Below are positions 1-56,985 of a DNA stretch of 56,985 bases, piece by piece. A model generated the notes under the pieces. It had not been told where the DNA came from, made no database searches, and saw nothing but the letters and a program-made list of their open reading frames with translations. The DNA is taken from the IMG/VR virus record IMGVR_UViG_3300024334_000003, positions 1 to 56,985 of that record; one strand, written 5' to 3'. How positions within the stretch are numbered: position 1 is the first letter of the stretch; every line of letters starts with the position of its first letter. This DNA is from a virus. Both the position numbers and the translations under genes were made by a program.

Positions 1-159
1 ACTTCTAGCGATTATTGCCCAGTACAATAGTCAAAAAAAAAAAGAAGAAACTTCACAATCTCCCTTGGTTTCGGAGGTGGGTTCATTGGATTCAAGTTCA
101 CCTACATCTCTGGGTGGAGAACAAGACACTGCACTTTCGGATTTTCTTACGGCACCGAG
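1..159. repeat. Left copy of terminal overlap (A11 version)
   Basis: These 159 bases recur at the right end of the window with a single difference: this copy has 11 A's (33-43) and the right copy has 10. The match shows that the molecule is circular or terminally redundant, with a unit length of about 56,827 bases. The A11 version keeps the giant gene open across the junction. Confidence 0.97.
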
Positions 160-9100: not shown

Positions 9101-9799
9101 TCTGCGCCAAAGGATGTAACTCAAGGGTTCACTAGATTCCTTGGCCCGTATGGAGACTTCCTTGACGATGCTAGAACGATTGCAGAAAACCTTGCGCTAC
9201 CACCCAACCGTGTGGTGTCGAGCAACGGTACGGAGTACTTCGTTAGACCAGAAGACAAGGAAGCAATGGAATTGCACTACTACATGAAGACTTTCCTGTT
9301 TGCTGGTCAGATGTTCGGGCTGTCTAGTAAAGAGATTGATGTTCTTGTACGTGAGATGGATGACCTACCAAGAGACAGGAGGTTGTCCAACGAGGAGGCA
9401 CTCGCTGCATACGAGGTGATTGCAGAAAAGTATGGCAACACCCTTGAAGGTGAGGTCATAGGCGAGGAGAGAATCATGAAGGTCATCGAAGACAAAGAAT
9501 CTGTGTTTGATAAGAAGCGTGCTGCTGACAGCTTCCGCTCTTCTGTCAAGCCATTGGTGGCGGAGCAGGTGATGAGGGATGAATACCCAGAGGGCTACAA
9601 GTCATATATCAGAGAGGCTCGCAAGCTACCTAAGCAACTTAAGAACGCTAGAGATTACTACGCCTACCTCAGGGGGAAGAGTCAAGACATGGAGCCGCAA
9701 GAGTTTGAAAAGTTCAAGACATTCATTGACTCTTATCTGGCCATCGTCAGACCTTCGTTCTACGTTGAGGAGCAATACATAGAATCCGTAGAAGAATGA
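2..9799 (+). CDS. Giant polyvalent virion/ejection protein, zincin-containing
   Basis: This is the main part of a protein of about 3286 residues (numbering from the ATG at 56766). A hydrophobic, alanine/glycine-rich stretch lies at about 360-520. A zincin-type HEAFH motif is at about 827-831. The middle is rich in long charged helices. Towards the C-terminus there is a conserved-looking segment with NPINLLRN at about 2700 and LPFSRFAVNKK at about 2912, resembling the C-terminal LPD38-type domain of phage polyvalent proteins. Such proteins are packaged in the capsid and delivered into the host with the DNA (family knowledge). It follows two internal virion protein genes, which fits an ejected inner-core role. 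Its stop overlaps the next start (ATGA). The exact domain set and the substrate of the metallopeptidase are unknown. Confidence 0.85.
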   Translation, partial: LLAIIAQYNSQKKKEETSQSPLVSEVGSLDSSSPTSLGGEQDTALSDFLTAPRIGNKRVPQFEADILNDYATSFDNAYLQTIYEKFDVSKFTDIVNYENSQGSYQDFLNAFNQSSTEDEKFTAKKELVDFLIEEGDPDFEINRRVLGGVTDEVYRDLTGNPELEGEDILTPIPLKNQVSKSLQDLGAGVATRSGAKLRENLPQSILEDPKKVSDYERYLYDNYGLSVDLNEDKYIGGVEVVEGGAFAGFGRSVSKAWKETMAGGNFILGDAVASMFGDDNWFTQWAIRAGEEGSAQAEEIAKELPISLERLAAKTDKVLSLKGDDGELDDLINDYLRMGGESVPMMGGAIVAGVLTRGAASRSTGLSQLRTSLKGLSRAEQIAKTRQFMAAGKTISQAKKIVKTSQTAGAFTATSAMGMGTQYNAVRDEEWFQEMSGAEKSAYTSIMGVAEGLPALVAANISARALGRLSKVGKENFVKGLLKATGIGMIEEGVTEGVTAGIQYITSTSFNPNVEFDFDDMMADVKDGVYGGIALGGGVSVTAQIPGAIYAGAMAVTSLPSVRDAIQIEKLTKEYDTAPDQATRQEIGRKLEAAVMGRATRNRNRRKFYEDLHENNNEAWSQLTGIQKKIIQLGLQFERTEKGETRDGFKAEMVALLEERTKLEKELGMEYDLDINKEFNRVSGRISKIDRYYNDYGSLFEGDSESTTVTGENADSVLDAINEVTFNRIDQVEKLSTGVSMKRALKNVVTVAKALSKTGKFEGIVIHKTDTSFMNATGQALGRGMWTGKGKIHIYAPAAMENTSFHEAFHDLVLESLGEEALQKLSVSLYKGLSGDLRKKYNNFLAGQRGVNRRQVQEMEGDPMTAEEFLVELLGDITTGDVGIEVKKGLVNQFKDFVAKAVNTIPGVEVDMTEADPRLDDLVTAIQKMTGQLAAGEAVTATEDLRDASVRAGYNAMMVELEDMSSKAQGIYARNRDVEEVTDAGRWAASMAEATDRMKELKMKMVLQVDALSEADAQKIIDDGGKLFMTKDGLGGAYLKSDGYMGGLFKNPDSQLRAISAPLQAIRAREGGKFYDAFATKLESLYVSNGWKPVARLDFNEEFAPEGWNDPDSPLIDKPDVVFFVKGEGKVGDGIRMDEYDDAFNYAEGLANGKAQAFIRELQNKPGLEDFLTKANLTETELEERKKELLLPESQRQKRKPIVVEALKNYAAQEINQEQFIEIIRRESPITPFPTVPEVPSILDVGSALTSNKLNAGIIDVNKTIPQGYYVALRLDIPAYDNYDVWVVSIHQGSTNDVRSPNMGGSIGYGQTGLISNVEFLAMPKAAFQIATQKGKAPIARMFGDWKNHDSQELRQRAVDIMAGDQYNVSDHPVGKHEGWVQVGMNPFRHSWFYDKRDGNPIVSASEVIQIGALVLAKDVEKVPVTDERFSIATEDGATIKFQHILPGQDGMDTKVSFSNKAQKFGRISNRYAVEDGEFEESANAVLHNAVFDEVLNESQVIVSSPDHMLVGTVFLDEEVLAEGGGGLFYPVRTKNTWAFGQKGDANAFKNTVNKMRGESPDGKVHVLLVSGTDDKVKSNITTMEAGLNLMDRLVGEGILTQNQIDKLIVDSLNDIIDALPAKKEGRYGEKVKFKGKRADIRAAVEASLRRTDNTSFELRRAYMDKLFANLGRMSVIRENPKSLDKVKEITGVSKLTKSQVGSTLKRTLVLSMIEGHLQGVPKDVVYASIEVDSDLEVDMMPGNEAFPAAVVMRDAGGNKKTPKIHLFADKPHVNDVMLDNETGLSRADFMEAKLADGEYAKKDGVRRSEANERKAIDGRWKGSMGLLQAAYGFGKTRPKAQAIVDSESKAQGSFLKKVSQMIDKVYPSPIISRDKRRKNPVTGLDESQQLDAFAYAKSEVIKTLMDMGMSKEGADMMFKKAVAYKQGRSQGKREGMRVAMANAAETRKMGTKAKNLQKALIQLKDKSKTFNEFLTKAIELIDGRMKEDAKTPFTRSQITGMVKAIRQAHKTSGKKIEEQGMEAMQTFIDKISVIFDKRDSRAELQRYLDGIKHAQKLQKRIKRMAKPKGRSGAAKNVTTYAKIANGLASINPALLPQNELEGFVSTLMSTISSMSKAKAVFEPEIEAYVGVSFAKTEAVVLYNKLSNYQAMEELGRQAVFMARAQLRAAKNNTTVEEEYKKLVQNYERSRLSSSRRAILKFIDDNPTIQHPDTGDTVVLNASNPAHVDLITQILAEQAATKEELQKDAIINDVLLPRIVANIDKLLEDTQIADILGIYSVADLDFDKLRARLNKLKRHHIINLDYRLDDYLINDSVYGIGYMHALVQGNIDMPSELEKLVKRKGLKARKGALFGMLDTVNSYLSNVIPTDRITFAKLRVAIGLAQLTNDFANADFIHSQVVELLENEINRITEKGGSVTTRMDRAIMQLYSMAKQMPEFEGERGQAEAAWYLELRNSMRRTIDYYSEQQSFSNEEIDEFEDAFNYMFGQAETLSEMIARVESERKDVVEMVQFTSDIHSSLMPAFRNYVERYLGKELVVEDNYTAFEVIPETGARDVDDMLSLRISLNDALASSSLSQTKKVAGSSFERNPRSLKGKNRIGLDFLSANERTLRDNIILSNTVGSVVRSSYVLNSDAMKAFIPNAKVRMELERKIMLYVQQDTGKVPPVFQPTFKAIGFRFINPINLLRNAVIVRAFGSFGIQTLKQSTVLTSVMFQTKNPIQSIPYLLTTLSEMVYFSLKTLAGKDAKLALDDGRYKLLQNSPVFQRDYEAGNIDPYTGRMSLDEGSLQKVVRTMSDISLKNLKGTDKVAAVASWFTFYGDALITEGVVESFDQIDWDAEAVAPNSTALSYADAMVNKDQAASTPREAADLYMQEKGVKSIIAYLAQNILLPFSRFAVNKKRSISSDAMRIYKGDAQAKKEGGVAMLGHAAELTLFAYIGKVLIPAISSIFIDDDEDEMPKDSRWRDILSQVVVDANPLPPMGIFDNQVKGALNKFLFYPYDVMMEGDFDLGDDDGYERWTRLGKGVPMYYKSAPKDVTQGFTRFLGPYGDFLDDARTIAENLALPPNRVVSSNGTEYFVRPEDKEAMELHYYMKTFLFAGQMFGLSSKEIDVLVREMDDLPRDRRLSNEEALAAYEVIAEKYGNTLEGEVIGEERIMKVIEDKESVFDKKRAADSFRSSVKPLVAEQVMRDEYPEGYKSYIREARKLPKQLKNARDYYAYLRGKSQDMEPQEFEKFKTFIDSYLAIVRPSFYVEEQYIESVEE

Positions 9800-10266
9800 A
9801 GCTAGAAGTGATGAGGTTTAGCAGCCAAGAGCGGGACACGCTGGGGCTGTTGTTTGATGTGAGCAACGGGACAGAGTTCCGTGAGTTTCTTTGCTTCACC
9901 CTTGAGGACGAAGACAGAAAGGAGAAGGTCATGCATGAGACACGAATCCCTGCGGGAACATACAAGCTAAGGCTAAAGACTTGGGGTGGATACCATGACA
10001 GGTACACCAAAAGGTTTGGCGACATGCACAAGGGTATGCTTGAGGTATTGGATGTGCCTAACTTCGAACACATTCTGATTCATTGCGGCAACGATGAGGA
10101 CGATACTAGCGGGTGCCTCTTGCTTGGCAATACCCAGACGGAGAACATCGCGTCCACTGGATTTGTCGGTGGCTCGACCGCAGCATACAAAAGAGTTTAC
10201 CCTCCCATCGCAGCTGCACTGGAGTGTGAGGAATGTACAATTACATACACCGATTACGATGGATGA
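9796..10266 (+). CDS. DUF5675-like protein
   Basis: A 156-residue protein. Its centre reads IPAGTYKLRLKTWGG...HKGMLEVLDVPNFEHILIHCGN...TSGCLLLG, the pattern of the DUF5675 family: a conserved histidine in ILIHCGN and a glycine/cysteine motif about 10 residues later, which recall the layout of small cell-wall-active or YkuD-like enzymes. The biochemical role of the family is not established. It overlaps the giant gene by 4 nt and the holin-like gene by 8 nt, so it belongs to the end-of-late-operon lysis position. An accessory lysis role is an inference. Confidence 0.75.
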   Translation: MKLEVMRFSSQERDTLGLLFDVSNGTEFREFLCFTLEDEDRKEKVMHETRIPAGTYKLRLKTWGGYHDRYTKRFGDMHKGMLEVLDVPNFEHILIHCGNDEDDTSGCLLLGNTQTENIASTGFVGGSTAAYKRVYPPIAAALECEECTITYTDYDG

Positions 10267-10699
10267 TAAAAAGAAAATCAAAGACACTGGTCTAGGCAAG
10301 TGGCTTGCTAAAGCTGCGCCTAATGTACTCAGCACTGTAGGGGATTTACTTCCCGATAAAGGAGCACTTGGCATAGTCAAGAACTTGCTTGATAAAGAGC
10401 CGGGTGTTTCACCAGAGGAGGCTAAGGCTCGTGTTGATGCGGAGATTGCTTACCAAAACAATGTGACCGAGCGTTGGAAAGCCGACATGAGCAGCGATGT
10501 AAAGCTCGCTAAGTACATTAGGCCAGTAACACTGATTGCCTTGATGGTAATGTTTGTAATGACCATGGTGCTAGACTCTATGGATAACCTTCCATTCAAC
10601 GTGAAGGACAGCTACGTGTCTCTCCTTGAGATACTTATGCTTACATCATTTGGTGCTTACTTTGCAGGACGAACCATTGAGAAATCCAGAACAAAATGA
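10259..10699 (+). CDS. Holin-like membrane protein
   Basis: A 146-residue protein. The ATG at 10259 overlaps the upstream stop. A longer in-frame extension upstream was rejected because it lies wholly inside the DUF5675-like gene. The N-terminal half is hydrophilic with lysine-rich helices. The C-terminal half has two membrane segments (about 84-105 and 114-134), the first following a YIRP motif, and ends in a basic tail (RTIEKSRTK). This resembles the 3TM-type phage holins, in which a conserved R-P precedes the first segment. It would form the inner-membrane lesion at lysis. Position after the late structural genes supports this. Confidence 0.72.
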   Translation: MDDKKKIKDTGLGKWLAKAAPNVLSTVGDLLPDKGALGIVKNLLDKEPGVSPEEAKARVDAEIAYQNNVTERWKADMSSDVKLAKYIRPVTLIALMVMFVMTMVLDSMDNLPFNVKDSYVSLLEILMLTSFGAYFAGRTIEKSRTK

Positions 10700-24820: not shown

Positions 24821-24867
24821 GAATACTAATAGTGTGCGGGGGAATGCTTTACCCTAAATCCAACCAC

Positions 24868-25989
24868 ATGTCACGCTATAAGTTCCATGCAATCTTTGTC
24901 CTATGGATGCTAACCCTCCTGCTTGTAAGCAAGGCCAACTCTCAGTGTGTCACATTCGGTGAGCCAGAGGATTTAGCTGTAAGAACAATGGGGTTCTTCC
25001 CAGATGAACCAGAATGGAAGACGGTCAACTACGTCGTTCACATTTACTACACTGACAGCATCTCTCACAGCAATCTACCGCTCTATATCGTTAACGATGC
25101 AGCTGCTCATCTGAATGAGGAGTTCGAGGAGGCGATGTATGAGTTTGATTTATTGGCCATAGAGTATCATGACTTTGATGAGTACGAAGATTCCTATGCG
25201 TTGCTCAACACTAATTGCATTCCTTACAATGGGTTTGCTTTTAACTCTATGAATGACTACTTAGAGGATATCGTATGGGACAGAGAAACGGTAATGAACG
25301 TACATGTATTCCCAGCTCTTTGTCAAGGCATACTAGGTTTTGCATGGACAGCGTACACACCTCAAACAACACTAGACGGAGTGTGGGTCAAGACAAGTGT
25401 ATTCGGAAGGCTAGGAGACCACCTATTGGATAATAGAGATGAGAACAAAACACTTATCCATGAGGTCGGTCACTTCCTAAGTTTGCATCACGTCTTTCGG
25501 AACGTAGACAACTGCGGACAAAACCTCGGTGATTGCGAGGAGACAGGAGACTTTGTTTGCGATACCCCGCCAACTAAACTGAACTGGAGTTGCGAGAACC
25601 CAATATGCCCCCCTGCCCTGTACAGCTACACACCGGACAATCACATGGACTACTATGTAGATTCATGCCGGCAACACTTTACTGAAGGTCAGATTGAGCG
25701 GATGCATAGCATGATTGAGATTACTAGGCCGGGCATGACGACGGGAGACCCGTATTGCGCAGGTGACATCAGCGGCGATTTAGTTGTAGGTACTAACGAC
25801 TTAATGCTTATGCTCAGCCATTGGGGTGACTTTAATTGGATTGAGGGAGACCTAAACGGAGATGGCTTCTTTACAGTTAGCGACCTTCAAATTGTACTAG
25901 CTAACTGGGGGCAGATTTGTTTCGGTTCGGAGCTCGACCCCTTCTATAGAGAAGAGCAAGTAAGGAGGAAGTCAGAAAGAAGGTTTTGA
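24868..25989 (+). CDS. Secreted M43 (pappalysin-like) metalloprotease with dockerin-like tail
   Basis: A 373-residue protein. The start MSRYKFHAIFVLWMLTLLLV gives a clean signal peptide ending near KANSQC; earlier in-frame starts would place charged residues before it. The catalytic motif is HEVGHFLSLHH (H198, H202, H208; the usual glycine at 205 is serine). The M43 pattern continues: cysteines around NVDNCGQNLGDCEETGDFVCDTPP, then the Met-turn NHMDYY and CRQHFTEGQIERM. The C-terminus holds two 22-residue dockerin/EF-hand-like repeats (GDISGDLVVGTNDLMLMLSHWG and GDLNGDGFFTVSDLQIVL). It would act in the periplasm or outside the cell. Such a gene is unusual in a phage and was probably acquired from a marine Bacteroidota host. 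Confidence 0.85.
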   Translation: MSRYKFHAIFVLWMLTLLLVSKANSQCVTFGEPEDLAVRTMGFFPDEPEWKTVNYVVHIYYTDSISHSNLPLYIVNDAAAHLNEEFEEAMYEFDLLAIEYHDFDEYEDSYALLNTNCIPYNGFAFNSMNDYLEDIVWDRETVMNVHVFPALCQGILGFAWTAYTPQTTLDGVWVKTSVFGRLGDHLLDNRDENKTLIHEVGHFLSLHHVFRNVDNCGQNLGDCEETGDFVCDTPPTKLNWSCENPICPPALYSYTPDNHMDYYVDSCRQHFTEGQIERMHSMIEITRPGMTTGDPYCAGDISGDLVVGTNDLMLMLSHWGDFNWIEGDLNGDGFFTVSDLQIVLANWGQICFGSELDPFYREEQVRRKSERRF

Positions 25990-26019
25990 GTTAATGTAGT
26001 ATTCATTTTACTACTTTTG
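25985..26019 (+). promoter_or_regulatory. TTTG / TAnnTTTG promoter, 4 nt before ATG
   Basis: TTTG at 25985-25988 and TACTTTTG at 26012-26019, 23 nt apart. The ATG of the next gene follows after exactly 4 nt, so the transcript is predicted to be leaderless. Confidence 0.65.
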
Positions 26020-37015: not shown

Positions 37016-38770
37016 ATGCCTGTAAGTGTAAACCAGCCTAAAAATGTAAAAGTATCCAGCCAGCACGGTGACATCATTAAGGTGTCTATTGTTAAAGATG
37101 GCCCGGACATTAAAGTCGTTACTTTAAATCAGGTAGCGGACAACTCCATCTCTATTGCTGGTGCCATTGGTGCTGGTCCAGCTGGTGCTACAGGTCCACA
37201 AGGACCGCAAGGTCCACAAGGACCAGCGGGTGCCGATGGTGCCGATGGTGCTCCCGGAGCGGACGGAGCTGACGGTGCCGATGGCGCGGATGGCGCGGAT
37301 GGCGCGGATGGTGCCGACGGTGCCGACGGTAGTGATGCAACAACTGAAACCCTAGACTCTGCAATTACTGTATTCTTACCAGACGGCGGTAACTTCGGAA
37401 AGTTTTCTCACACTGACCAGATAGTAGTAGGTGATGGTAATAAGACTGCCATCGACATAATTAGAGAGGCTCTTGTTCAGTTAGGGCAAATCCAAGCTCC
37501 TACGATAAATGTCACACCTAATAGTGTGGGCTTTAACGACACGCCTATTAGTAATGCTACAGCGCAGATACAAGCTTCTGTAACAAACCCCAATAGCTCT
37601 CAGGGCTCTACGATTACTTTCAAGTTTTACAAAAAGATTGGTAGTGGTGCGTTTAGTTTGATTCACACTCAAACTGGTGTTACTGGAGCATCAGCGAGTT
37701 ACACCCACAGTGAGACCTACAGCTTTGCCTTCGCTACAGAGAACCCAACTAATGAGCACATCACTTGGAAAGTAAGTGCAGAGGAACCTGATAACGGTCA
37801 GGGTGAGGTGTTTAGCTCGGAGGTAGACTACGACCCCGTGTATATCTCACCAAGATTAATAAAGACCAACAACACAAACGGTATTGAGCTTCAGAGAAAG
37901 TCCAATGCATTAGCTACGGTTTCATCAGACGAGACCGACTCCAATCGTCAGCTATACAACGGTGAAAGTAATCTCAAGTTTAAGGTTGAGGTTGAAACGA
38001 GCGGCGTAGCTCTGGATAGCTACGCGGTTTTAGATTCTAACAATGCTCTCGTTGGAAGTATAGTAGACATATCTGGTGAAAGTCTTGACTCTAACGGAAG
38101 AACCAGCACGTTTAGTATTGCTATAGATGATGGCGATGTCGCTATTGGCGATTCTAATACATACAAGGTAAAGATTTGGGATAGTGTAAGACCTTACTCT
38201 AGCTTGAGTTCTACTGAGTGTGACTTTGAATCTGCCTCCTACTCAGTAAATAGGGTTCCTGTTAAACTGGTTCTAAGCTCTACTGCTCTAACCACCTCAA
38301 GTACTGACTCAAATTTTCAGGATATGTACGATGGAGACACTTCCAACAACGGTGTTTCGTGCTACCCTGAAAACATAACTTCTACTGGTGACTTACTTGA
38401 CGCTAATACGTCTCAGTTGAGTGTCAGTATGCTTGTAAATACTTCTCAGCAGACAGGAGATTACGTTTACGTCTTTGTTCCTTCATACTATTTTTCAAAT
38501 GGTAGTGGGGGTTATCAGGATTTAACAGGAGGGGGTAATGTCAATCAAGATTTCTTTGAGGACTTTGGAGGTAACAACTACACGCAAAGAATAGAGAACC
38601 CCCCACAAACAACGGGTGACTTCTGGCTCCTGAAAGAAGCGTTAAATTTGCAAATTCAATTTGGCACAGCCAGCAATAAAATTCCATTTCATGTCTTGAG
38701 GCTCTATGAACCATTGGCTAACGTTGGTTTGAGAGGGAGCTATTACCTAATAAGAAATACGGAATCTTGA
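37016..38770 (+). CDS. Collagen-like fibre protein
   Basis: A 584-residue protein. The N-terminus (MPVSVNQPKNVKVSSQHGDIIKV) is a small beta domain. Residues about 58-108 are Gly-X-Y repeats: GPQGPQGPQ, then at least ten GAD/GAP triplets, giving a collagen-type triple helix stalk. After it come beta-sandwich repeats (TATIQASVTNPNSSQGSTITF...). The DNA of the stalk is a tandem GAY-GGY-GCN repeat. It is probably a trimeric head or tail fibre used in host binding. Confidence 0.75.
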   Translation: MPVSVNQPKNVKVSSQHGDIIKVSIVKDGPDIKVVTLNQVADNSISIAGAIGAGPAGATGPQGPQGPQGPAGADGADGAPGADGADGADGADGADGADGADGADGSDATTETLDSAITVFLPDGGNFGKFSHTDQIVVGDGNKTAIDIIREALVQLGQIQAPTINVTPNSVGFNDTPISNATAQIQASVTNPNSSQGSTITFKFYKKIGSGAFSLIHTQTGVTGASASYTHSETYSFAFATENPTNEHITWKVSAEEPDNGQGEVFSSEVDYDPVYISPRLIKTNNTNGIELQRKSNALATVSSDETDSNRQLYNGESNLKFKVEVETSGVALDSYAVLDSNNALVGSIVDISGESLDSNGRTSTFSIAIDDGDVAIGDSNTYKVKIWDSVRPYSSLSSTECDFESASYSVNRVPVKLVLSSTALTTSSTDSNFQDMYDGDTSNNGVSCYPENITSTGDLLDANTSQLSVSMLVNTSQQTGDYVYVFVPSYYFSNGSGGYQDLTGGGNVNQDFFEDFGGNNYTQRIENPPQTTGDFWLLKEALNLQIQFGTASNKIPFHVLRLYEPLANVGLRGSYYLIRNTES

Positions 38771-48000: not shown

Positions 48001-48822
48001 ATGGCAAGGAACCTCGTCACCGTAGAGCAGGTAGTAAATGACTTTGTTTTAACTATTGATTCTGATGATTACGTTAGCAACGCTTCTGATGTTGTTATCA
48101 GGAACCTTGCCCTGCGTGGAATCAGGGAGATGGGTTTTGACATGCTGAAGCGGGTTCGCTCAGTAAAACTAAAACGAAACACAAACGACACCGTTGACCT
48201 TCCAGACGATTTTGTAAGCCTGATTAAGGTTGGTGTTGTGGGTAGCGATGGATTAATTCGAGTCTTTGCAGAGAACAAAAACATTAACTACTCTCAGGCA
48301 TACGCCGATATCAATGGGACAAAGGCAGCTACTACAGCTGATGCCATAGACTCTAATGGAGATGGTTTGTTTGACCGGGTGGACGATAAAGGAACTACAG
48401 CTAGTGGTGTTTTTGGTGACGAAGATTTCATTACGTTTAGTAACTACGTTTTTCAGGGAGGGGTTGGACAGATTTACGGACTAGGTGGTGGGTTTTACGA
48501 AGGTCAATACAGGTTTAATGAAGACCAAAACCGAATAGAACTTTCATCAGGTTCCGGTGATGAGGTTGTCATTGAGTATATCGCAGATGAGGCGCGTTCT
48601 TCCAACCCTACAGTTCACGTTGAGGCTGAAGAAGCTCTACGCTCTTACATGTACTACAGGTTAATCGAAAGAAAGACAAGTGTACCATTAGGTGAGAAGG
48701 GGAGAGCAAGACAAGAGTACTACAACGAGAGGAGAAAGGCGAACGCCCGACTCAAAGCATTCAGCAAAGAGGATGCACTTCAAATCATTCGTAAGAACTT
48801 CAAGCAATCACCTAAGTACTAA
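48001..48822 (+). CDS. Tail adaptor/ring protein (gp4 / tail tubular A-like)
   Basis: A 273-residue protein. The N-terminal part (VVIRNLALRGIREMGFDML...VDLPDDFVSLIKVGVV) has the R-x-L-x-x-x-x-x-x-G and L-P-D-D-F pattern of T7 gp11/P22 gp4-type adaptors. An EF-hand-like insert, DSNGDGLFDRVDD, lies near residue 118. The C-terminus is helical and basic. It would connect the portal to the tail nozzle. Stop and start overlap the next gene by one base. Confidence 0.68.
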   Translation: MARNLVTVEQVVNDFVLTIDSDDYVSNASDVVIRNLALRGIREMGFDMLKRVRSVKLKRNTNDTVDLPDDFVSLIKVGVVGSDGLIRVFAENKNINYSQAYADINGTKAATTADAIDSNGDGLFDRVDDKGTTASGVFGDEDFITFSNYVFQGGVGQIYGLGGGFYEGQYRFNEDQNRIELSSGSGDEVVIEYIADEARSSNPTVHVEAEEALRSYMYYRLIERKTSVPLGEKGRARQEYYNERRKANARLKAFSKEDALQIIRKNFKQSPKY

Positions 48823-51800
48823 TGGCTATTGAGAAGCTTGTACCCCAGTATCTCAATAAGGATGAGGACGAAAGACTCGTAAAGCCTTTTGAGATGACCG
48901 ATGCGCTCAACATCCGCGTTTCACATGAGGATGACGGGCAACAAGGTGTTGTGAAAAACGTTGAGGGAAACACCGCTATAGCTGCGAGAACTGTACCAGA
49001 CAATATCCCAACCTCTGGTACAAACAGAGTCATTGGATGTGTTTCCTCTGACGCAGAAAAGAGTATCTACTTCTTTCTTTACAACTCATCCGGGAATCAC
49101 GGTATCTATTTGTATGATTCTTCTGATGATACCTACAGAAAGGTGTATGAGGATACCGTTTTAAACTTTTCCCAGAATGGTTTTGTGAAGGCTGATATTG
49201 TTGTGAATCAATTTCAAGAGCACCTGCTCTACTTCACAGACAACAGAAACGAGCCGAGAAAGATTAACGCTACTAAGGCAGTCCTCGGGCAATACAGCTC
49301 TACATTTACGGGTGGAACAGACCAAGCTAAATCGAAGTTCCTTACTGTCGCTAAAGCACCACCTCAAGATGTAATTACGTTTGCCTACCAGACCAATCAG
49401 AATCTGGGTGTAAACAACCTCAAAGAGTCTTGCTTTCAGTTCGCGTATCAATACGTCTATGATGATGGTGAGGTATCTGCGCTTTCTGCGTACTCCTCAT
49501 TAGCTGTAAGTAAGTCACACACAGCGTTTAACTCTAGAGAGTTTGGCTCACTAGAAAAAAGAAACAACGAGCTTAAGATAACAATTACTAATTCCGACGG
49601 CCCGGTTGAAAAGATTAGGTTGTTCGGAAGAAAGAACAACGAGGGAGCATTCGTTCTCATTAAAGAACTTGACAATGTTGAGCCAGTGAGCATAGGCACG
49701 CTGACCCAAGATTTTATCTTTAGGAACGATGGAGCTTACACTTTTCTTTCCGATGAAGAGGTAAACAAGTCTTTCGATGCGGTACCTAGAAGGGCTGGTG
49801 CTCAATGCGTTTCTGACGGCAGGTTAATTTATGGGAACTACCTAGAGGGGTTTGACAACATCGAGACAGATGTCTACAACTACCCAGTGTACAACCCCGA
49901 GAGTTCGCTTGGTGGAGACTACGACTTCACTGTTGACGACAACGATGCTATCGTAAGGTCAAACAACGCCTTCTACAGTAGTTTTGGAGGCTCGTACAAC
50001 ACGGACTTTGCCGAGGCTTTCTTTGCCCCGCTAAATGGCACTAGCTCAGCTAGTCCAGCTGAGTTGGATTTTGCAGCAAATCATCTTGATGGTCTTAGTT
50101 TTACAGACCCTGACAACACCAGCGATACCAGCTTCACTACGACTGGGATTCATTTTGATGTGGACCTTTCGGAGTTCCCTGAAGGGGGTTTCCCTGAGGA
50201 CATGTCTCCTTCTATTGACTTCAATGTAAATCTGTCTACGAGCAAGATTGGAATCATGTGCTCTGGGGATAATGACAGTGCTATTAACGTTCCGGCTAGT
50301 ACGTTTCAAAACGGACAGTTGGTGCACTCACAGAACTGCACGATTCTTCACCCTGACAACACGAATGGAGCACTGTCAAACTTCGCTCCAAATAGCGACA
50401 TCATATTCAATAAGCAGTTCAATGTATCTGGTGTAACAAACTTAGATGACTTTAGGAATGCTTTGATTGATGGTGTTGTTGGTCAGACTACTGCATTTGT
50501 TGGTGTGTCCCCGGGTCAGACATCGGGCTCTCAGGCTGGAGATGCCTATGGAAACAACCTTTCCTCTAACGATAATAACGCGGGTCAGTTCGGTAGGATG
50601 ACCACCCACATGGCCGCTGTTGGTGGCGCAAACCACGACTTAATCCCGTCAAACGTTAACAACAAGAACCAGTTGTTCGTTGCGTTTGCAGGCGAGTTAA
50701 AGTTTGTCATTCATTCTTCTTCGGTTATCTCGCCAACAAAAGTTAGGTTCTTTGTTAGGATGGCTGGTGTTGACCTTTCATCACAGTTTGTGAAAGGTGT
50801 AGAGAAGGGCTTCGGTTCAACTCAAACAGGGAATCAGTTTGTTGATACTTCAAACCATTCACTAGTTGCAGAAAACTATAGTGGCTACGATGTCTACGAC
50901 ATTGATGAGCACAGTGTCATCATCAACTCAACTCACATCAATGCTGATGGATTTACTGTCGAGGATTACGACAATGGCTCTAGTAGTATTAAGTCCTTGT
51001 TGTTTGATTACGATGCTGTAGGTAATGTTGATGTATTCGGAGAGTCCGATAAGGTTCAAAGCTTTAAGGCTGGTGCAACACACGACTTTGGGGTTGTTTA
51101 TTACGACGAAAGAAACAGAGCGTCTGGTGTTCAGAGGATTGACACCGTAGACGTAGCTCACTTTGGCACTTCCCAAAGGCAGGGTAGGAACGGACCGACT
51201 GCGATTGACATGAGAATCCTGCATGAGCCACCAGAGTGGGCATCAAAATGGGCTCCCGTGTACAGCAAGAACACCAGCTATGACAAGGTTATGCAGGTGA
51301 GTATTGCTGAAGCTTGCCTAGGGAAACAAACGACTTTCTCTGACATACTATCTCCTCAGAACGCTTTGGCAGATAGAGACAGACCAGTCATCGAGTCCAT
51401 CGCAGGTGGAATCAATGGTCAAATCTTCGTGTCTATGAGGCCTACTGAGGGTAAAGCAAACTCGTACAAGGAGTTTAAGGGAGGGCAGTTAGACTATCAG
51501 TATCAAGAGGGGGATGTGATGCGAATCATTGAGTACGTTGGTCCAGATGGTAGTCGTATTAGGCCACTACACGAGTTTGCAATCACCTCTTACAAGTACT
51601 ATGTAGATGATGACAAGAACCCGATTAAGCTGGCGGTTCAGTCTACGTCTGGTGACGGTGGTTCAGCTCAGTCCGATGAAAACAATTTCCGAAGAACGGG
51701 TTGGTTTTTAACTGTTAGGGACAACAACACCCCAAGGTTTAGTAGGGATGAGGTTGCTGTAGGCACGGACTTCTTTTCTCAAGGATGCGTGGTAGAAATC

Positions 51801-54155
51801 TACAGACCTCAAAAGCAACAAGAGAATAGGATTTACTACGAGATAGGTAGGTGCTATGATGTTAAAACAATAGGCGGAAATAGAACCCACGGAGGTGACC
51901 GAAGTAACACCTCATCTCCCGACTTCAGTATTACTGTTGAGGGTGAGCTTTCGTTTATCTCTTCTCAGAGGCTGTACAATGGAGATAGAGTCAACACTGG
52001 TGATAACGCAGACGGTGATGCAGTCAGTTCTACTGGTAGGGTTTTTGTCGAGAGTGTTAAGCCAGAGGGCAATGGTTTGTTTGTGTACGGCGTGCATCCA
52101 TCCAATCCATTTAGCTCTGACACTATAGGTACTACAGCATCTTCAAATAATGTAGATGCCACGGTGGGTAGCGGAAACAGTGTGTTCCCGGGTGTGATTA
52201 CACTTAGAGAGGGTGATGTTTACATGCGTATTAGGGAGCAGCTATTCAACCCTGAGTCTTTATTTGAGCCAGTGTCTGGTACCACTAGAATCTTTGACCC
52301 AACTAAGGTTGATGAGGCTAGATATAGAAAGCAAATTGTAGAGTCCGAATCTGTTAGTGACTTCTTTGATTCAAAAGCCGTTAACGTTGGCAGACCCTTC
52401 GTCGAGACTGTAGAGCAAAAGGAGATTACCCGCGAGTCGGCAGTGACTTACAGCGATAGGTTTGTGTCTGATTCTAGCAGGTTAAATCTTTCTTCGTTCA
52501 ACCCTGCGTTATTTCCTTTCAAGGACTACAACAGTCAGCATGGTATTATTACCTACTTAGTTGATGCAGGGGAGTCCTTTTTCAACCTACAAGAAAACAA
52601 GGTTAGCCTTACACCAGTAGGAAGAACACTGATTCAAAGCACAGGTCAGTCTCAACTAGTCACCTCCACTGATGTGCTGGGTAAAGAGACCTATATGTCT
52701 GGCACATACGGACCGGGAAGAAACCCAGAGTCGGTGGTTGAAAGATTCGGAAGGATTTATTTTTCTGACATGTCCTCAGGAAAAGTTATTGCGGTAACCT
52801 CATCTGGCATTAGTCCTATTAGCGACACTAAAATGGAGTCCTTCTTTGAGACCGCCTTCATGAATGCTTTTGAAAGTACATCAACCCCTAGGCTACCTTC
52901 GGGTATTGACCCAGAGAACAGCGAGTTCATAGTTACTATTGAAAGCACAGATGTCGCGCCACTGGGCTTTGGGGGCACAACCATTGGGGATATCGTTAAA
53001 CCTCCCACCAATCCAGACGTTGCCTCTGCTGACGGAAGGGTGTCAATCGTTGCATCGACCAACACTCTTACTTGGGATAAAGACGAATACCCTTGGGACA
53101 GTGCTCACATTGATGGGGACGACAGGGAGCCAATATGGAACACCACCCATGTTGGGGTTGCGTATGCAGACCTGCTAATGAAAAGAGGCTCTGTTTTCGT
53201 TGACCCAATTCATGTTGATAAGGGTGACAAGGTATCTGTGGATGTGGTCTTGAGTACATCTGGAGAGTTTAGAGGTACCGCCGAGCTGTCATGTAAAGAT
53301 GGTTCAATTAAGTTCTGCACTAAAATAATTGACATTGGGGGTGACGTTGCTTCGGATGCTTCAGATATCGTGGCGGTGGGAAGTGCCGTTACTAACAACG
53401 GAGAAACGATTGCGTACTCTACTACGAAAGAATTTTGGATGTCGAGGTACAGCTTCATACCCGAGATGTATGCTCACATACATAATAGATTCTTTTCTTT
53501 TGAAGGGGGTCAGATGTACAGGCACAACACAAACGCTACTAGAAATAACTTTTACGGTAATCAATTCAACTCTACAATAGATGTGATTTCTAAGCAAACA
53601 CCGTCCATGGTAAAGGCTTATACAGCTATGAGTCTTGAAGGAAACGACACTTGGTCTGGAACTATAGAAAACAACACACAAAACACAGCCATCACGGAAG
53701 CAATGTTTGAGGAGAAGGAAGGTATGTACTACACCAACATCCCTCGTGGTCTTGCTGCAAATGCCAGCGACTCTATTGGTACCGAAAGGATTGTACTAGG
53801 TGTTGTCGCTTCACAGGCAAACAGCAATAAAGAAATCACCTTCACCTCTAGGATTAGCAACCTTCCGTTCGGTATTGGCGATACTGTTAAAACTCTTACA
53901 GGCTCCGCAGAGGGCAATACAACCAAAACTATACAGTCCGTAAAGGACAGAAAGACAATCGTTGTAGACAGCGACCCCGGCAACCTTGTTGGTAGCACGC
54001 TAATGGCTTTATCTTCTGACGTTATTAACGGAGAGGTGTTGAGAGATTACTACGCTAAGTTCAAACTCGTAAATGACAACACGTCTGCGATTGAGCTGTA
54101 CGGAATCAATGCGGTTTATGCAGTTTCTCCATTAGATAATTCACAAAACCAGTAA
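48822..54155 (+). CDS. Tail nozzle/hub protein (1777 aa)
   Basis: The largest tail protein. Its N-terminus, IEKLVPQYLNKDEDERLVKP followed by ALNIRVSHEDDGQQGVVKN, matches the P22 gp10/T7 gp12-like nozzle family, in which a beta-propeller-like platform forms the tail tube tip. The rest contains many beta-sandwich segments, among them IYFFLYNSSGNHGIYLYD. The length is far beyond the family's usual 700-900, so extra receptor-binding or enzymatic domains are probably inserted. It lies between the adaptor and the internal virion proteins. Confidence 0.72.
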   Translation: MAIEKLVPQYLNKDEDERLVKPFEMTDALNIRVSHEDDGQQGVVKNVEGNTAIAARTVPDNIPTSGTNRVIGCVSSDAEKSIYFFLYNSSGNHGIYLYDSSDDTYRKVYEDTVLNFSQNGFVKADIVVNQFQEHLLYFTDNRNEPRKINATKAVLGQYSSTFTGGTDQAKSKFLTVAKAPPQDVITFAYQTNQNLGVNNLKESCFQFAYQYVYDDGEVSALSAYSSLAVSKSHTAFNSREFGSLEKRNNELKITITNSDGPVEKIRLFGRKNNEGAFVLIKELDNVEPVSIGTLTQDFIFRNDGAYTFLSDEEVNKSFDAVPRRAGAQCVSDGRLIYGNYLEGFDNIETDVYNYPVYNPESSLGGDYDFTVDDNDAIVRSNNAFYSSFGGSYNTDFAEAFFAPLNGTSSASPAELDFAANHLDGLSFTDPDNTSDTSFTTTGIHFDVDLSEFPEGGFPEDMSPSIDFNVNLSTSKIGIMCSGDNDSAINVPASTFQNGQLVHSQNCTILHPDNTNGALSNFAPNSDIIFNKQFNVSGVTNLDDFRNALIDGVVGQTTAFVGVSPGQTSGSQAGDAYGNNLSSNDNNAGQFGRMTTHMAAVGGANHDLIPSNVNNKNQLFVAFAGELKFVIHSSSVISPTKVRFFVRMAGVDLSSQFVKGVEKGFGSTQTGNQFVDTSNHSLVAENYSGYDVYDIDEHSVIINSTHINADGFTVEDYDNGSSSIKSLLFDYDAVGNVDVFGESDKVQSFKAGATHDFGVVYYDERNRASGVQRIDTVDVAHFGTSQRQGRNGPTAIDMRILHEPPEWASKWAPVYSKNTSYDKVMQVSIAEACLGKQTTFSDILSPQNALADRDRPVIESIAGGINGQIFVSMRPTEGKANSYKEFKGGQLDYQYQEGDVMRIIEYVGPDGSRIRPLHEFAITSYKYYVDDDKNPIKLAVQSTSGDGGSAQSDENNFRRTGWFLTVRDNNTPRFSRDEVAVGTDFFSQGCVVEIYRPQKQQENRIYYEIGRCYDVKTIGGNRTHGGDRSNTSSPDFSITVEGELSFISSQRLYNGDRVNTGDNADGDAVSSTGRVFVESVKPEGNGLFVYGVHPSNPFSSDTIGTTASSNNVDATVGSGNSVFPGVITLREGDVYMRIREQLFNPESLFEPVSGTTRIFDPTKVDEARYRKQIVESESVSDFFDSKAVNVGRPFVETVEQKEITRESAVTYSDRFVSDSSRLNLSSFNPALFPFKDYNSQHGIITYLVDAGESFFNLQENKVSLTPVGRTLIQSTGQSQLVTSTDVLGKETYMSGTYGPGRNPESVVERFGRIYFSDMSSGKVIAVTSSGISPISDTKMESFFETAFMNAFESTSTPRLPSGIDPENSEFIVTIESTDVAPLGFGGTTIGDIVKPPTNPDVASADGRVSIVASTNTLTWDKDEYPWDSAHIDGDDREPIWNTTHVGVAYADLLMKRGSVFVDPIHVDKGDKVSVDVVLSTSGEFRGTAELSCKDGSIKFCTKIIDIGGDVASDASDIVAVGSAVTNNGETIAYSTTKEFWMSRYSFIPEMYAHIHNRFFSFEGGQMYRHNTNATRNNFYGNQFNSTIDVISKQTPSMVKAYTAMSLEGNDTWSGTIENNTQNTAITEAMFEEKEGMYYTNIPRGLAANASDSIGTERIVLGVVASQANSNKEITFTSRISNLPFGIGDTVKTLTGSAEGNTTKTIQSVKDRKTIVVDSDPGNLVGSTLMALSSDVINGEVLRDYYAKFKLVNDNTSAIELYGINAVYAVSPLDNSQNQ

Positions 54156-54165: not shown

Positions 54166-55119
54166 ATGGCACTATTCAATGAACCAGAGGGGGCACCCAT
54201 TCCACCACCAAACGACCCGCCACCAAACGACCCGCCACCAAACGACCCGCCATCTTCGTCTGGCTCAAGCACCTACGCTCCTGTAGGTAAAGCCATGGGT
54301 ATGTTAGGCTCTGGTGCGGCTACTATGCTTGGTGGAGTTGTTGATATTTTTGCTGGAAATGCAGGCATTAAAAGAGGTGAGGAATCACTTGGGGTTGCGG
54401 ACGCAGAGCTTAGAAAACTCAAGGCTTCTCAGCCCTCGCTATCAACACCCTCAGAGTACTACGAGGCTGCAAAGAACGCCTATGACCAAAGATTGGTTCA
54501 GATGAGAACCGAGGACATCAACCGTTCCTTAGCTACCACAACGCAGGCAGCAGGTCAGTTCGGGGCCAGAGGTCTTGGGGCTGTGATGCAGGCTCAGCGA
54601 GATGCTCAGTCTCAGATGAGGACGGAAGCCCTCACGCAACAGCAACTTCAAACACAGGCTCTTACAAATCTGGCTGATGCAAGACAGCAGGAAGTTGGTA
54701 GACGAGAAGCACGCTCTACGAGAGACATTGATTATGGCTATGATGCAAAGGCATTAGCCCAAGCTCAGCTCGCTCAAGCTAGACAACAGCGTTCCGCTGG
54801 CATTGCTGGTGCCCTTGGAGGGGCGGCTGAGGCCGCAGTAGGTGGGGTTGCTCTATCTAAAATGATGCCTCCTAAAGTGCCTAAAGTGATGGAGGAGGGC
54901 GGTGAGGTTCAAAAGACACCGGGTGAGTTTAGCCACGAGAAAAATGAGATGTATGTAGTTGATGAAGACGGCAAGTCTATGGGTATTGCCCTTACTGGAG
55001 GTGAGTATGTTATTGCTCCAAAGGATGCTGCTCGGCTACAGAAACTTTCAGGTAAGGGTAAGTCAGGACTTCACAGCTTTGTTAGAAAGCTCGTAACTAG
55101 ATTTGAAAAAGCAGACTAA
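54166..55119 (+). CDS. Internal virion protein with proline repeat (317 aa)
   Basis: Residues about 12-27 are a repeat of PPPND units encoded by a tandem 15-bp DNA repeat. A hydrophobic segment follows (AMGMLGSGAATMLGGVVDIFAG). The middle is a long Q/A-rich coiled coil (TQAAGQFGARGLGAVMQAQRD...). The C-terminus has MEEGGEVQKTPGEFSHEKNEMYVVDEDGKSMGIALTGGEYVIAP in two parts, a short module frequent in internal virion/ejection proteins. It probably forms part of the ejected inner core. Confidence 0.68.
   Translation: MALFNEPEGAPIPPPNDPPPNDPPPNDPPSSSGSSTYAPVGKAMGMLGSGAATMLGGVVDIFAGNAGIKRGEESLGVADAELRKLKASQPSLSTPSEYYEAAKNAYDQRLVQMRTEDINRSLATTTQAAGQFGARGLGAVMQAQRDAQSQMRTEALTQQQLQTQALTNLADARQQEVGRREARSTRDIDYGYDAKALAQAQLAQARQQRSAGIAGALGGAAEAAVGGVALSKMMPPKVPKVMEEGGEVQKTPGEFSHEKNEMYVVDEDGKSMGIALTGGEYVIAPKDAARLQKLSGKGKSGLHSFVRKLVTRFEKAD
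54205..54249 (+). repeat. Tandem 15-bp repeat (x3) in the internal virion gene
   Basis: CCACCAAACGACCCG three times without change, encoding PPNDP units. Copy number could vary among related phages. Confidence 0.9.
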
Positions 55120-55120
55120 G

Positions 55121-56749
55121 ATGGCAGAAGGAACGAGATTTAAAACTGGTTTTCTCCCAGCACCAATTAGCTACACAGGCATCGGTGCTCAGATTGGAGA
55201 TAGAATAAGCCAAGGCATTCAGGGCATGTCTGATGAGTTTGAAAGAAGAAAAGCTCAGACCAACCAAACCATGGGCTTTACCGACGCGCTCGGTGAGGCT
55301 GTACCCGCTGGAATCACGTCAAAGTACAGGGAGGGTGCTCAGATTTTATTGACTAAGTATCAGAATGCTGCAACAAAAGCTTACAGAACTGGTGTTCAAT
55401 CAGACATTGACGAGTATCAGAGACTTCGTGGTGAGTTTATTGAGTTCAAGAACATTTCTACAGCTAAAAGCGCACTAGATAATCAAACTAGATTGTCAAT
55501 CGCACAAGGCCAATACAAGAACCTATCGGGTGGTATTGCAGAAAGCTTAGATAAATACAACGAATACTCTAAAGCCAACTACAGTTGGAACGAAGCGACT
55601 AGACAGCTTGAGGTCGTGATGGGCAATGGTCAAACAAACTGGAGAGAGTCTAACATCGCGGACATGAACGACGTTTTTGTTCCTTCTACCTTATGGAAGG
55701 GTACCGAATACATGACGGAAAACCTTGGTAACTCTGTATATGAAGACGTACTCAAGGCTCGTGAGGCGACCTATCAAAATCTTACAGACCTTGGGTTTGC
55801 AGACGGCACACTTAACAACGAGGCCATCTATGAAGACATTGACACGAACCTTCAATCTAAGTTTGCCGTAAGGGGTACTGAGATGATGGAGGCTATCGCT
55901 ATTACGGGCTACAAAAATTTACAGAAGCCCGGAGCTATAGAGCTTACGGAAGAAGATTTTGCTGAGGCTGGTGTTCTTTACAACGAGCAAGAAATTTTTG
56001 CTGAGCTACCCAGTGGTAAAAACATTGGTGATGGTAAACTCAACTCTAGTGGAGAGTGGGTATTTGATGTGTCTGATGAGGAGGTTAAAGAAGAGATGGG
56101 GAACATGGGTTCTGTATCTCGACAGTACATCGAAAGAAGAAAGGCTGTTAAGCTGTACATGGAGGAGGCCTCATCAAAGGCATTCAACCTTGTGCAGGTA
56201 AACAATCAGCTTGCTCAAGACCTTTCGGCAAGACGCTCTGAAGCTGCTGCCGCAGCAAGACTTAAGGCTTCTCAAGGGGATGACAAACCAGCAACAGACC
56301 TTATCCCTGTAGCAGACAGTGTTACAATCCCAGCCCACCTTAGTGAAGAGGGCGAGACAGTTCCAGAAAAGCCTAATCAAAGCGTCTATCGTGTTCCCGC
56401 AAGCGTCAAAGGCAGAGAATTTAAGTTTGCTGTAAGAGCGGGGGATGAAGAGGCGGCTCAAACAACACTCGTTAATAATGTTGTTTTCAGCCCTCAGGGT
56501 GAGCTCATAGGTTATGATATTGCTACTGGTCCGGGGCTTATTGAAGGTGTTACTCAAGACATTGAAGGCCTTGACCTAAGCACAGAAACTGTATATGCAT
56601 TCGACCCAAGGTTCGAGCTAATCAATAGTAAGTTTCGTTCTGTTGGCCAAGCGAAAGGCAGAAGAATCGGTAGGGAAATTCTAGAAGAGGCAGCTACAAA
56701 AGTGATACTACAGGAGTTCTTGTCTCAACAGGAGAAGGGTCAGGAATAA
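55121..56749 (+). CDS. Internal virion protein (542 aa)
   Basis: The ATG 1 nt after the upstream stop is preferred; an earlier in-frame start lies inside the upstream gene. A helical protein (GTRFKTGFLPAPISYTGIGAQIGDRISQ, then long helices such as TTKYQNAATKAYRTGVQSDIDEY-type segments near 75-100) with no catalytic motif seen. A beta-rich part lies near 410-480 (YRVPASVKGREFKFAVRAGD). It precedes the giant polyvalent protein gene, the usual order of ejection-protein clusters. Confidence 0.65.
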   Translation: MAEGTRFKTGFLPAPISYTGIGAQIGDRISQGIQGMSDEFERRKAQTNQTMGFTDALGEAVPAGITSKYREGAQILLTKYQNAATKAYRTGVQSDIDEYQRLRGEFIEFKNISTAKSALDNQTRLSIAQGQYKNLSGGIAESLDKYNEYSKANYSWNEATRQLEVVMGNGQTNWRESNIADMNDVFVPSTLWKGTEYMTENLGNSVYEDVLKAREATYQNLTDLGFADGTLNNEAIYEDIDTNLQSKFAVRGTEMMEAIAITGYKNLQKPGAIELTEEDFAEAGVLYNEQEIFAELPSGKNIGDGKLNSSGEWVFDVSDEEVKEEMGNMGSVSRQYIERRKAVKLYMEEASSKAFNLVQVNNQLAQDLSARRSEAAAAARLKASQGDDKPATDLIPVADSVTIPAHLSEEGETVPEKPNQSVYRVPASVKGREFKFAVRAGDEEAAQTTLVNNVVFSPQGELIGYDIATGPGLIEGVTQDIEGLDLSTETVYAFDPRFELINSKFRSVGQAKGRRIGREILEEAATKVILQEFLSQQEKGQE

Positions 56750-56753
56750 TCCG

Positions 56754-56761
56754 TATTTTTG
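56754..56761 (+). promoter_or_regulatory. TAnnTTTG promoter box of the giant gene
   Basis: TATTTTTG matches the Bacteroidota -7 consensus TAnnTTTG and lies exactly 4 nt before the ATG of the giant virion protein gene. This spacing predicts a transcript that starts at or next to the start codon. No clear TTG -33 box was seen at the usual distance. Confidence 0.6.
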
Positions 56762-56765
56762 ACGC

Positions 56766-56985
56766 ATGGATGAACAGTTAAAGGCACTGCTTACTGAAGC
56801 GCAGGCTAATGGTGCTTCTGAATCAGAACTTCTAGCGATTATTGCCCAGTACAATAGTCAAAAAAAAAAGAAGAAACTTCACAATCTCCCTTGGTTTCGG
56901 AGGTGGGTTCATTGGATTCAAGTTCACCTACATCTCTGGGTGGAGAACAAGACACTGCACTTTCGGATTTTCTTACGGCACCGAG
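56766..56985 (+). CDS. N-terminal part of the giant polyvalent virion protein (continues at base 2)
   Basis: The ATG here, 16 nt after the preceding gene, opens the reading frame that continues across the circular junction into the frame starting at base 2. The first residues (MDEQLKALLTEAQANG) form a hydrophilic helix, followed by a lysine run encoded by the A-tract. In this copy the A-run is one base short, so the frame is lost after about residue 36. With the A11 version it continues to base 9799, giving 3286 residues. This start is preferred over a TTG at base 65 because it has an ATG, a matching promoter box at the 4-nt spacing used elsewhere in this genome, and tight spacing to the upstream gene. 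Confidence 0.8.
   Translation, partial: MDEQLKALLTEAQANGASESELLAIIAQYNSQKKKKKLHNLPWFRRWVHWIQVHLHLWVENKTLHFRIFLRHR
56828..56985. repeat. Right copy of terminal overlap (A10 version)
   Basis: Identical to bases 1-159 except for one missing A in the homopolymer (56860-56869). In this copy the reading frame that begins at 56766 is shifted after the A-run and reads lysine- and tryptophan-rich residues unlike the protein in the left copy. A sequencing or assembly error in the homopolymer is the simplest reading. Real length variation or slippage is possible. Confidence 0.97.

Follow-up and report, generated by a model that had tools for sequence, protein, structure and literature searches.

Here we present evidence that a run of A near the start of a giant cargo gene of a virus is a site of programmed transcriptional slippage, which probably makes a short protein, composed of a leader and a tail, beside a giant virion protein, both products being kept by selection. 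The window, as we call the whole stretch analyzed, is the 56,985-nucleotide IMG/VR record IMGVR_UViG_3300024334_000003. A short leader-plus-tail protein, predicted at 60-115 residues across the phages compared, is the best explanation of the patterns described below. The position and length of the run, its preservation against synonymous change, the conserved coding of the -1 frame behind it and the recurrence of the arrangement in other genera were observed directly; that the shift occurs in transcription rather than on the ribosome is what we infer from them. An earlier note on this DNA had proposed slippage at the run, and in the main the idea holds up, although the frame concerned and the grounds for it are different.

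End-to-end comparison of the contig confirmed that the two copies of its terminal overlap, positions 1-159 at the head and 56828-56985 at the tail (both + strand), are identical save for a single A. The head copy carries A11 at 33-43, the length that keeps the giant frame open, and the tail copy carries A10 at 56860-56869; the window has no other A or T run of nine or more. Joining tail to head connects the ATG at 56766 through A11 to the giant frame, as had been claimed, and gives an open frame of 3286 codons, in which codons 1-21 occupy 56766-56827 plus base 1, and codons 22-3286 with the stop occupy 2-9799 (+ strand). The leader up to the run, MDEQLKALLTEAQANGASESELLAIIAQYNSQ, lies at 56766-56859 (+ strand, tail copy). 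The statement that A10 breaks this frame after 36 residues stands in part: the two readings are the same up to and including residue 35 and diverge from there, but there is no immediate cut. In the circle the A10 reading continues to 74 residues, and in the linear file it reaches the end of the contig without a stop. Comparative support for ATG 56766 as the true N-terminus of the giant protein comes from the same start and leader in all 17 relatives that reach the gene start, which bears out the concern that annotation of the linear file alone would miss it.

Upstream of this ATG, by 4 nt, is a box, TATTTTTG (56754-56761, + strand), which fits the TAnnTTTG type and is a possible near-leaderless promoter. 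TAnnTTTG is the -7 promoter consensus of Bacteroidota, and boxes of this kind number 29 on the + strand of the window against 17.3 expected. Eight of them, at 26012, 26525, 27415, 30943, 34130, 43430, 54153 and 56754 (+), stand 1-5 nt before possible gene starts, a spacing that would yield near-leaderless transcripts. This is the "good promoter box" of the earlier note. It is present in the nearest relatives and in L032 and missing in L021, L022, L029 and L033, which means that the arrangement does not always include it.

Three scans of IMG/VR yielded 17 contigs containing the start of a clear relative of the giant gene, representing nine lineages, or ten counting the window; in L012, L013 and L040 the gene start is not reached. 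Comparison of the run in related phages had been put forward as a check, and 17 of 17 contigs proved to have the start codon and a leader followed by 10-12 A, with the giant frame open (A10 in L022/L036, L029-L031, L033 and L034; A12 in L021/L035; A11 in the rest). In each of the ten lineages the run is read as three lysine codons, AAA AAA AAA, following a codon that ends in A. Elsewhere in these genes AAA accounts for 10-37% of lysine codons, AAG is commoner than AAA in at least eight of the ten, and no second lysine triplet in the clade's giant genes is written AAA AAA AAA. The run is kept against synonymous change.

Behind the run a hidden -1 frame (43-168, + strand) encodes the tail RRNFTISLGFGGGFIGFKFTYISGWRTRHCTFGFSYGTEDR and ends in TAA at 166-168. 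One A more or two fewer leads into it; A10 does not. Its product in the window would be a 76-residue leader-plus-tail protein, the tail being Arg-rich and then Phe/Gly/Trp-rich. From the FG dipeptide to the stop, the -1 frame extends for 32 residues, gapless and with the same stop position, in 10 of 10 lineages. The nucleotide differences reverse their usual pattern: at codon positions 1/2/3 they are 0.32/0.32/0.23 in the overlap versus 0.29/0.20/0.58 in the rest of the gene, and where two lineages have the same residue, the codons are identical in 571 of 739 comparisons in the overlap versus 47% in the rest of the gene.

Conservation tests were done with eight of the ten clade lineages, leaving out L009 (near the window) and L032 (near L034). 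Among these eight, the -1 frame scored 3.17 BLOSUM units per site versus 2.12 for the giant frame, with identities of 57% versus 51%. When codons were redrawn with the giant protein fixed, none of 5000 sets matched the -1 score, and the sets held at least nine stops versus none observed. This null ignores relatedness among the lineages; a positional control that retains it, using 2456 windows of the same genes, gave a maximal -1 score of 2.31 versus 3.02-3.17 in the overlap and third-position differences of at least 0.43 versus 0.22-0.24, with none of the 2456 control windows free of stops in all eight lineages. The A10 (+1) frame was also considered as a functional alternative and rejected: with the 0 and -1 frames fixed, its conservation was 2.63 versus 2.46 expected (sd 0.04), and across genera it showed a small excess, 1058 versus a null mean of 875 (maximum 1028). 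The conserved frame is therefore the -1 frame and not the A10 reading, which the other two frames mostly explain, and the bare 36-residue peptide envisaged earlier gives way to the predicted 76-residue protein. The broader proposal, that slippage yields a short product together with the full protein, gains its support from the comparison with relatives and not from the A10/A11 difference.

The tail domain was also sought by itself. An HMM search found no standalone copy in the window or the fetched loci, the phage collection gave no copy and a single chance match (E 7), and the IMG/VR matches were to the same giant gene only (11 and 14 loci). In genome contigs, none of 19 pattern matches to the tail domain and none of 117 matches to the giant protein were confirmed.

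The giant gene is located downstream of a gene for a muzzle-type tail protein (48822-54155, + strand; Pfam crAss_MUZ_C, 2.7e-10; PHROG virion structural protein), in the same direction, with two genes of no assigned function between them (54166-55119 and 55103-56749, + strand). Together with a P22-like portal and a primase/helicase, the muzzle protein marks the virus as a podophage. The muzzle protein matched 94 records, from phages of Flavobacterium, Cellulophaga, Tenacibaculum and Maribacter plus one unclassified record, and the host is likely a member of the Bacteroidota. Several parallels make the giant protein a candidate muzzle-associated virion cargo protein. In crAss001, cargo proteins that have been detected in virions are the products of genes lying past the muzzle gene (PMC10172136); for ϕ18:3 gp123, a large protein at the equivalent place, the annotation cites MS/MS detection in virions, and the large Elemovirus protein at that place is annotated as "structural protein". 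The giant protein also contains FHEAFHD, a zincin-like motif, and a zincin-like HExxH motif has been found in phage polyvalent proteins (PMC5512222). Behind the giant gene, at 9796-10699, an L,D-carboxypeptidase/transpeptidase-like gene and a holin-like gene share bases with one another and with the giant gene's end. Elsewhere in the window, a 385-residue frame at 24832-25989 has a Peptidase_M43 domain (9e-19), unexpected in a phage; and a 584-residue fibre-like protein with a collagen-type repeat is encoded at 37016-38770.

From the 94 muzzle records, the giant gene or its start was read in ϕ46:3, ϕ13:2, ϕ18:3, ϕ19:3, ϕ38:1, Calle_2, Gundel_1, MW202828, Fpv3 and five Elemovirus records; MW202701 and CRP-9 share a domain only and were left out of the run comparison. 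A long run lies near the start of the giant gene in Elemovirus (A10), ϕ38:1 and Calle_2 (A10), Gundel_1 (A10) and MW202828 (A11), and the four Cellulophaga Pachyviridae (ϕ46:3, ϕ13:2, ϕ18:3 and ϕ19:3) have A9 as deposited. In each outside phage this is the sole A or T run of at least nine in the fetched stretch, except in Gundel_1, which has six in 36 kb. Using the Elemovirus giant protein as a scan query, we recovered ten loci, of which L094-L097 match later parts only. The six loci examined comprise one Elemovirus, one near-copy of it in leader and tail (L093) and four (L089-L092) that are 32-37% identical, each of the four having A10 at nt 92-215 with the giant gene in frame. The clade's layout thus recurs outside it as an exchangeable leader, an A9-A11 run and an "FGW" tail, both in cultured phages of Flavobacteriia (Elemovirus, ϕ38:1, Gundel_1 and the ϕ46:3 group) and in further phages known from metagenomes. 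The run arrangement was absent from crAss001 gp44-gp50, Fpv3 gp32 and the distant loci L038, L039, L041 and L042. Scans for relatives of the giant proteins of MW202828 and Gundel_1 returned, respectively, no relative among 15 matches and the phage's own record only. The gene that follows the muzzle-like gene of Flavobacterium phage Fpv3 (L085 20770-22566) opens with ATG and A9 (MKKK...), possibly a different slippage site.

Tails were compared across genera using ten representatives, one of them for the window's clade, with L093 left out as a near-copy of the Elemovirus representative. With the giant proteins held fixed, the summed local similarity of the -1 tails was 1497 versus 855 in the null (sd 46, maximum 970 of 400), and against random places of the same genes it was 1506 versus 735 (sd 44, maximum 866 of 500). 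Individually, 24 of the 45 pairs reached p 0.05, including window-L092, window-Elemovirus, ϕ46:3-L089 and Elemovirus-L092; the 21 that fell short include window-ϕ46:3, window-L089, window-L090 and all nine pairs with MW202828. HMM similarity of the outside tails to the clade tail was weak one by one, and the pairwise test is the better of the two. Each of the five outside families that were tested first had a -1 frame open for longer than expected (p 0.015-0.060; combined p 8e-5). A motif, [FISVY]G[WFY][RCQF], occurs in nine of the ten tails, MW202828 being the exception, a count that is descriptive since the motif was chosen after the tails had been seen. The predicted Elemovirus tail contains the peptides TYIGWR and NNWGFGIFCWER.

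The Cellulophaga phages differ in phase. With A9 as deposited, it is the giant, not the short product, that is in the shifted frame, and either the phase is truly reversed, as in tssM1 versus tssM3, or the run was undercalled. In ϕ46:3, ϕ13:2, ϕ18:3 and ϕ19:3 the small genes annotated ahead of the giant (L071 16119-16427, L081 3119-3382, L082 2810-3121 and L083 3556-3864) are its leader read through A9 in another frame.

The A10 copy in the window most likely is a contig end made by the assembler at a run of varying length in the reads. Positions 56859-56985, beginning at the base that precedes the A10 run, are the last 127 nt of the contig. A common largest k-mer of assemblers is 127, and an A10-specific node of the assembly graph would end exactly 127 nt on. 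Similarly, 32 of 60 listed Elemovirus records (MT497065-MT497125) start at the A10 run or 89-90 nt before it. Together, the 127-nt end and the Elemovirus record starts suggest that run length is not uniform among the reads and that assembly halts at this point. Such variation can come from errors of PCR or sequencing, from variants of the DNA, or from the two combined. Record starts at or near the run also concern L077, L078 and L079, and in MT497087 (Elemovirus) a split at the run left the giant protein annotated as two pieces. The A10 copy is thus best read as a by-product of run-length variation in the reads and not as a functional state. That the break might be only an artefact, a case the earlier note allowed for, fits the likely origin of the A10 copy but not the run itself, which is kept across relatives.

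The same observations could be taken to indicate a phase-variation locus, in which slippage of DNA polymerase leaves some virions with the giant protein and others without it, the variants alone making the shifted product. A10 and A11 do stand side by side in the window contig, Elemovirus assemblies often end at the run, and four Cellulophaga phages are deposited with the giant gene out of frame. Nevertheless, assemblies would look no different if a long run had been misread in sequencing or PCR, the giant gene is in frame in all 17 clade contigs and in all six Elemovirus-like contigs examined, and DNA variants would use both shifted frames, whereas the -1 frame is conserved and the +1 frame adds little. 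We consider phase variation improbable.

In three pairs of otherwise similar genomes the leaders differ, and similarity resumes at or near the run. L032 (run at 4703-4713) and L034 (4704-4713) match upstream, diverge over the leader and match once more from 4704, the run starting at 4703; ϕ13:2 and ϕ18:3 (L081 3268-3276, L082 3007-3015) show the same succession, with the match returning at 3266 and the run starting at 3268; and between L011 (5797-5807) and L035 (4706-4717), similarity resumes right after the run in L011 and 24 bases past it in L035. The leader therefore behaves as an exchangeable cassette with its right edge near the run. Several leaders resemble tandem repeats ending in Lys-Lys-Lys. 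A view in which nothing functional is involved would take the A10/A11 difference for an error of assembly, see in the run no more than the border of a recombining leader cassette and put the open -1 frame down to chance. In its favor are the leader exchange that ends at or near the run in these three pairs and the likely artefact origin of the A10 copy, given a contig end that lies 127 nt on from the base preceding the run. That view leaves the conserved -1 frame, the preserved AAA codons and the recurrence in distant genera unexplained, and we judge it very improbable indeed.

Under programmed transcriptional slippage, the reading we prefer, the first ~35 codons of the giant gene would form a leader module whose final Lys-Lys-Lys is encoded by an uninterrupted stretch of 10-12 A. 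In most transcripts the run would be copied without change, yielding the giant virion protein, and at times RNA polymerase would add one A, or drop two, so that translation enters the -1 frame and makes the 76-residue protein, the leader fused to the short Arg-rich, then Phe/Gly/Trp-rich tail. The run length, A10-A12 in all ten lineages and A9-A11 outside, suffices for RNA polymerase slippage, for which 8-9 or more are enough. Some considerations weigh against slippage: E. coli RNA polymerase slips little on the short A runs tested (PMC6260861); MW202828 has the run, but its -1 tail is unlike the others; the deposited A9 of the Cellulophaga Pachyviridae shifts the giant instead of the short product; crAss001, Fpv3 gp32 and the four distant loci do not have the arrangement; and DNA polymerase, too, is apt to slip on long runs, so that the DNA itself may vary.

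The main rival, which we regard as unlikely though far from negligible, is programmed -1 ribosomal frameshifting on A AAA AAA (or A AAA AAG), which would make the same protein from unaltered mRNA. The slippery heptamer is in the giant's frame in every lineage, so that a ribosome could shift likewise; the frame that codes for the conserved product is precisely the -1 frame; and the tail chaperones of tailed phages are produced through -1 frameshifting (PMC5009743). Transcription is favored over the ribosome because 9-12 A are kept where the ribosomal heptamer needs 7, because the third lysine codon is held at AAA despite the commoner AAG (AAA 10-37%), because the A11 of Citrobacter tssM1 slips at ~20% (PMC4256274), and because no downstream RNA structure stands out: none of the nine 80-nt sequences folded had a stimulator among non-pseudoknot structures (z -0.97 to +0.35). 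In the window, inspection by eye also revealed no Shine-Dalgarno-like stretch just before the run.

As to function, the leaders may be docking modules for loading of cargo into the virion. The leader is shared with a large virion protein, which suggests that the short protein uses the same binding site; at the giant's docking sites it might be a virion part in its own right or might limit the number of giant molecules loaded. More tentatively, and with the balance of our judgment somewhat against it, a large set of Bacteroidota podophages from several families might share a hidden slippage gene whose short leader-plus-FGW protein is its own virion part, competing with or anchoring the giant ejected protein through the exchangeable docking leader, so that slippage sets cargo stoichiometry. 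If slippage does operate here, a protein has been overlooked in many phages, cultured ones included (Elemovirus, ϕ38:1), and slippage-based control of a ratio acts at the start of the largest virion protein. Since the arrangement is also found in cultured phage-host pairs, direct testing is possible. The findings also carry a warning for annotation, since a functional run can be the point where a circular phage contig breaks, at the cost of the true N-terminus.

Slippage into a short overlapping frame is already known; in the open-access papers searched, we found no report of a conserved transframe gene of this kind in tailed phages. Among phage systems, lambda gpG/gpGT and other tail chaperones likewise derive two products with one N-terminus from a virion-assembly gene (PMC5009743), but there the shift is ribosomal, the shifted product is the longer one, and both gene and site are different. 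The crassvirus cargo proteins crAss001 gp45-gp50 resemble the giant protein in their large size and in the place of their genes after the muzzle gene, and they occur in virions (PMC10172136), but crAss001 gp44-gp50 are without the arrangement of leader and A run; phage polyvalent proteins share with it a zincin-like motif, HExxH (PMC5512222) versus FHEAFHD.

Bacterial genes provide precedents for the shift itself. Citrobacter rodentium tssM1 has an in-frame A11 with an added A at about 15-25% and two length variants, and in Yersinia tssM3 transcriptional slippage makes the recoded product the shorter one (PMC4256274); unlike the phage gene, these are bacterial secretion genes, and the excerpts of that source report no conserved second-frame coding over many lineages. 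Transcriptional slippage in the dnaX genes of Thermus thermophilus (A9) and of the chlorobial bacteria (A10) similarly gives a shorter product with the same N-terminus (PMC5009743, PMC3711429), but the shifted frames of dnaX stop soon, whereas the phages described here have a conserved tail of 24-51 residues in the shifted frame. A further parallel is potyvirus P3N-PIPO, in which one A inserted at a run joins an N-terminal module to a short -1 domain and the unshifted product is very long (PMC5009743). P3N-PIPO belongs to an RNA virus with its own RNA-dependent polymerase, a shorter run and an unrelated tail, whereas the window is from a DNA phage in which a DNA-dependent polymerase would carry out the same kind of shift.
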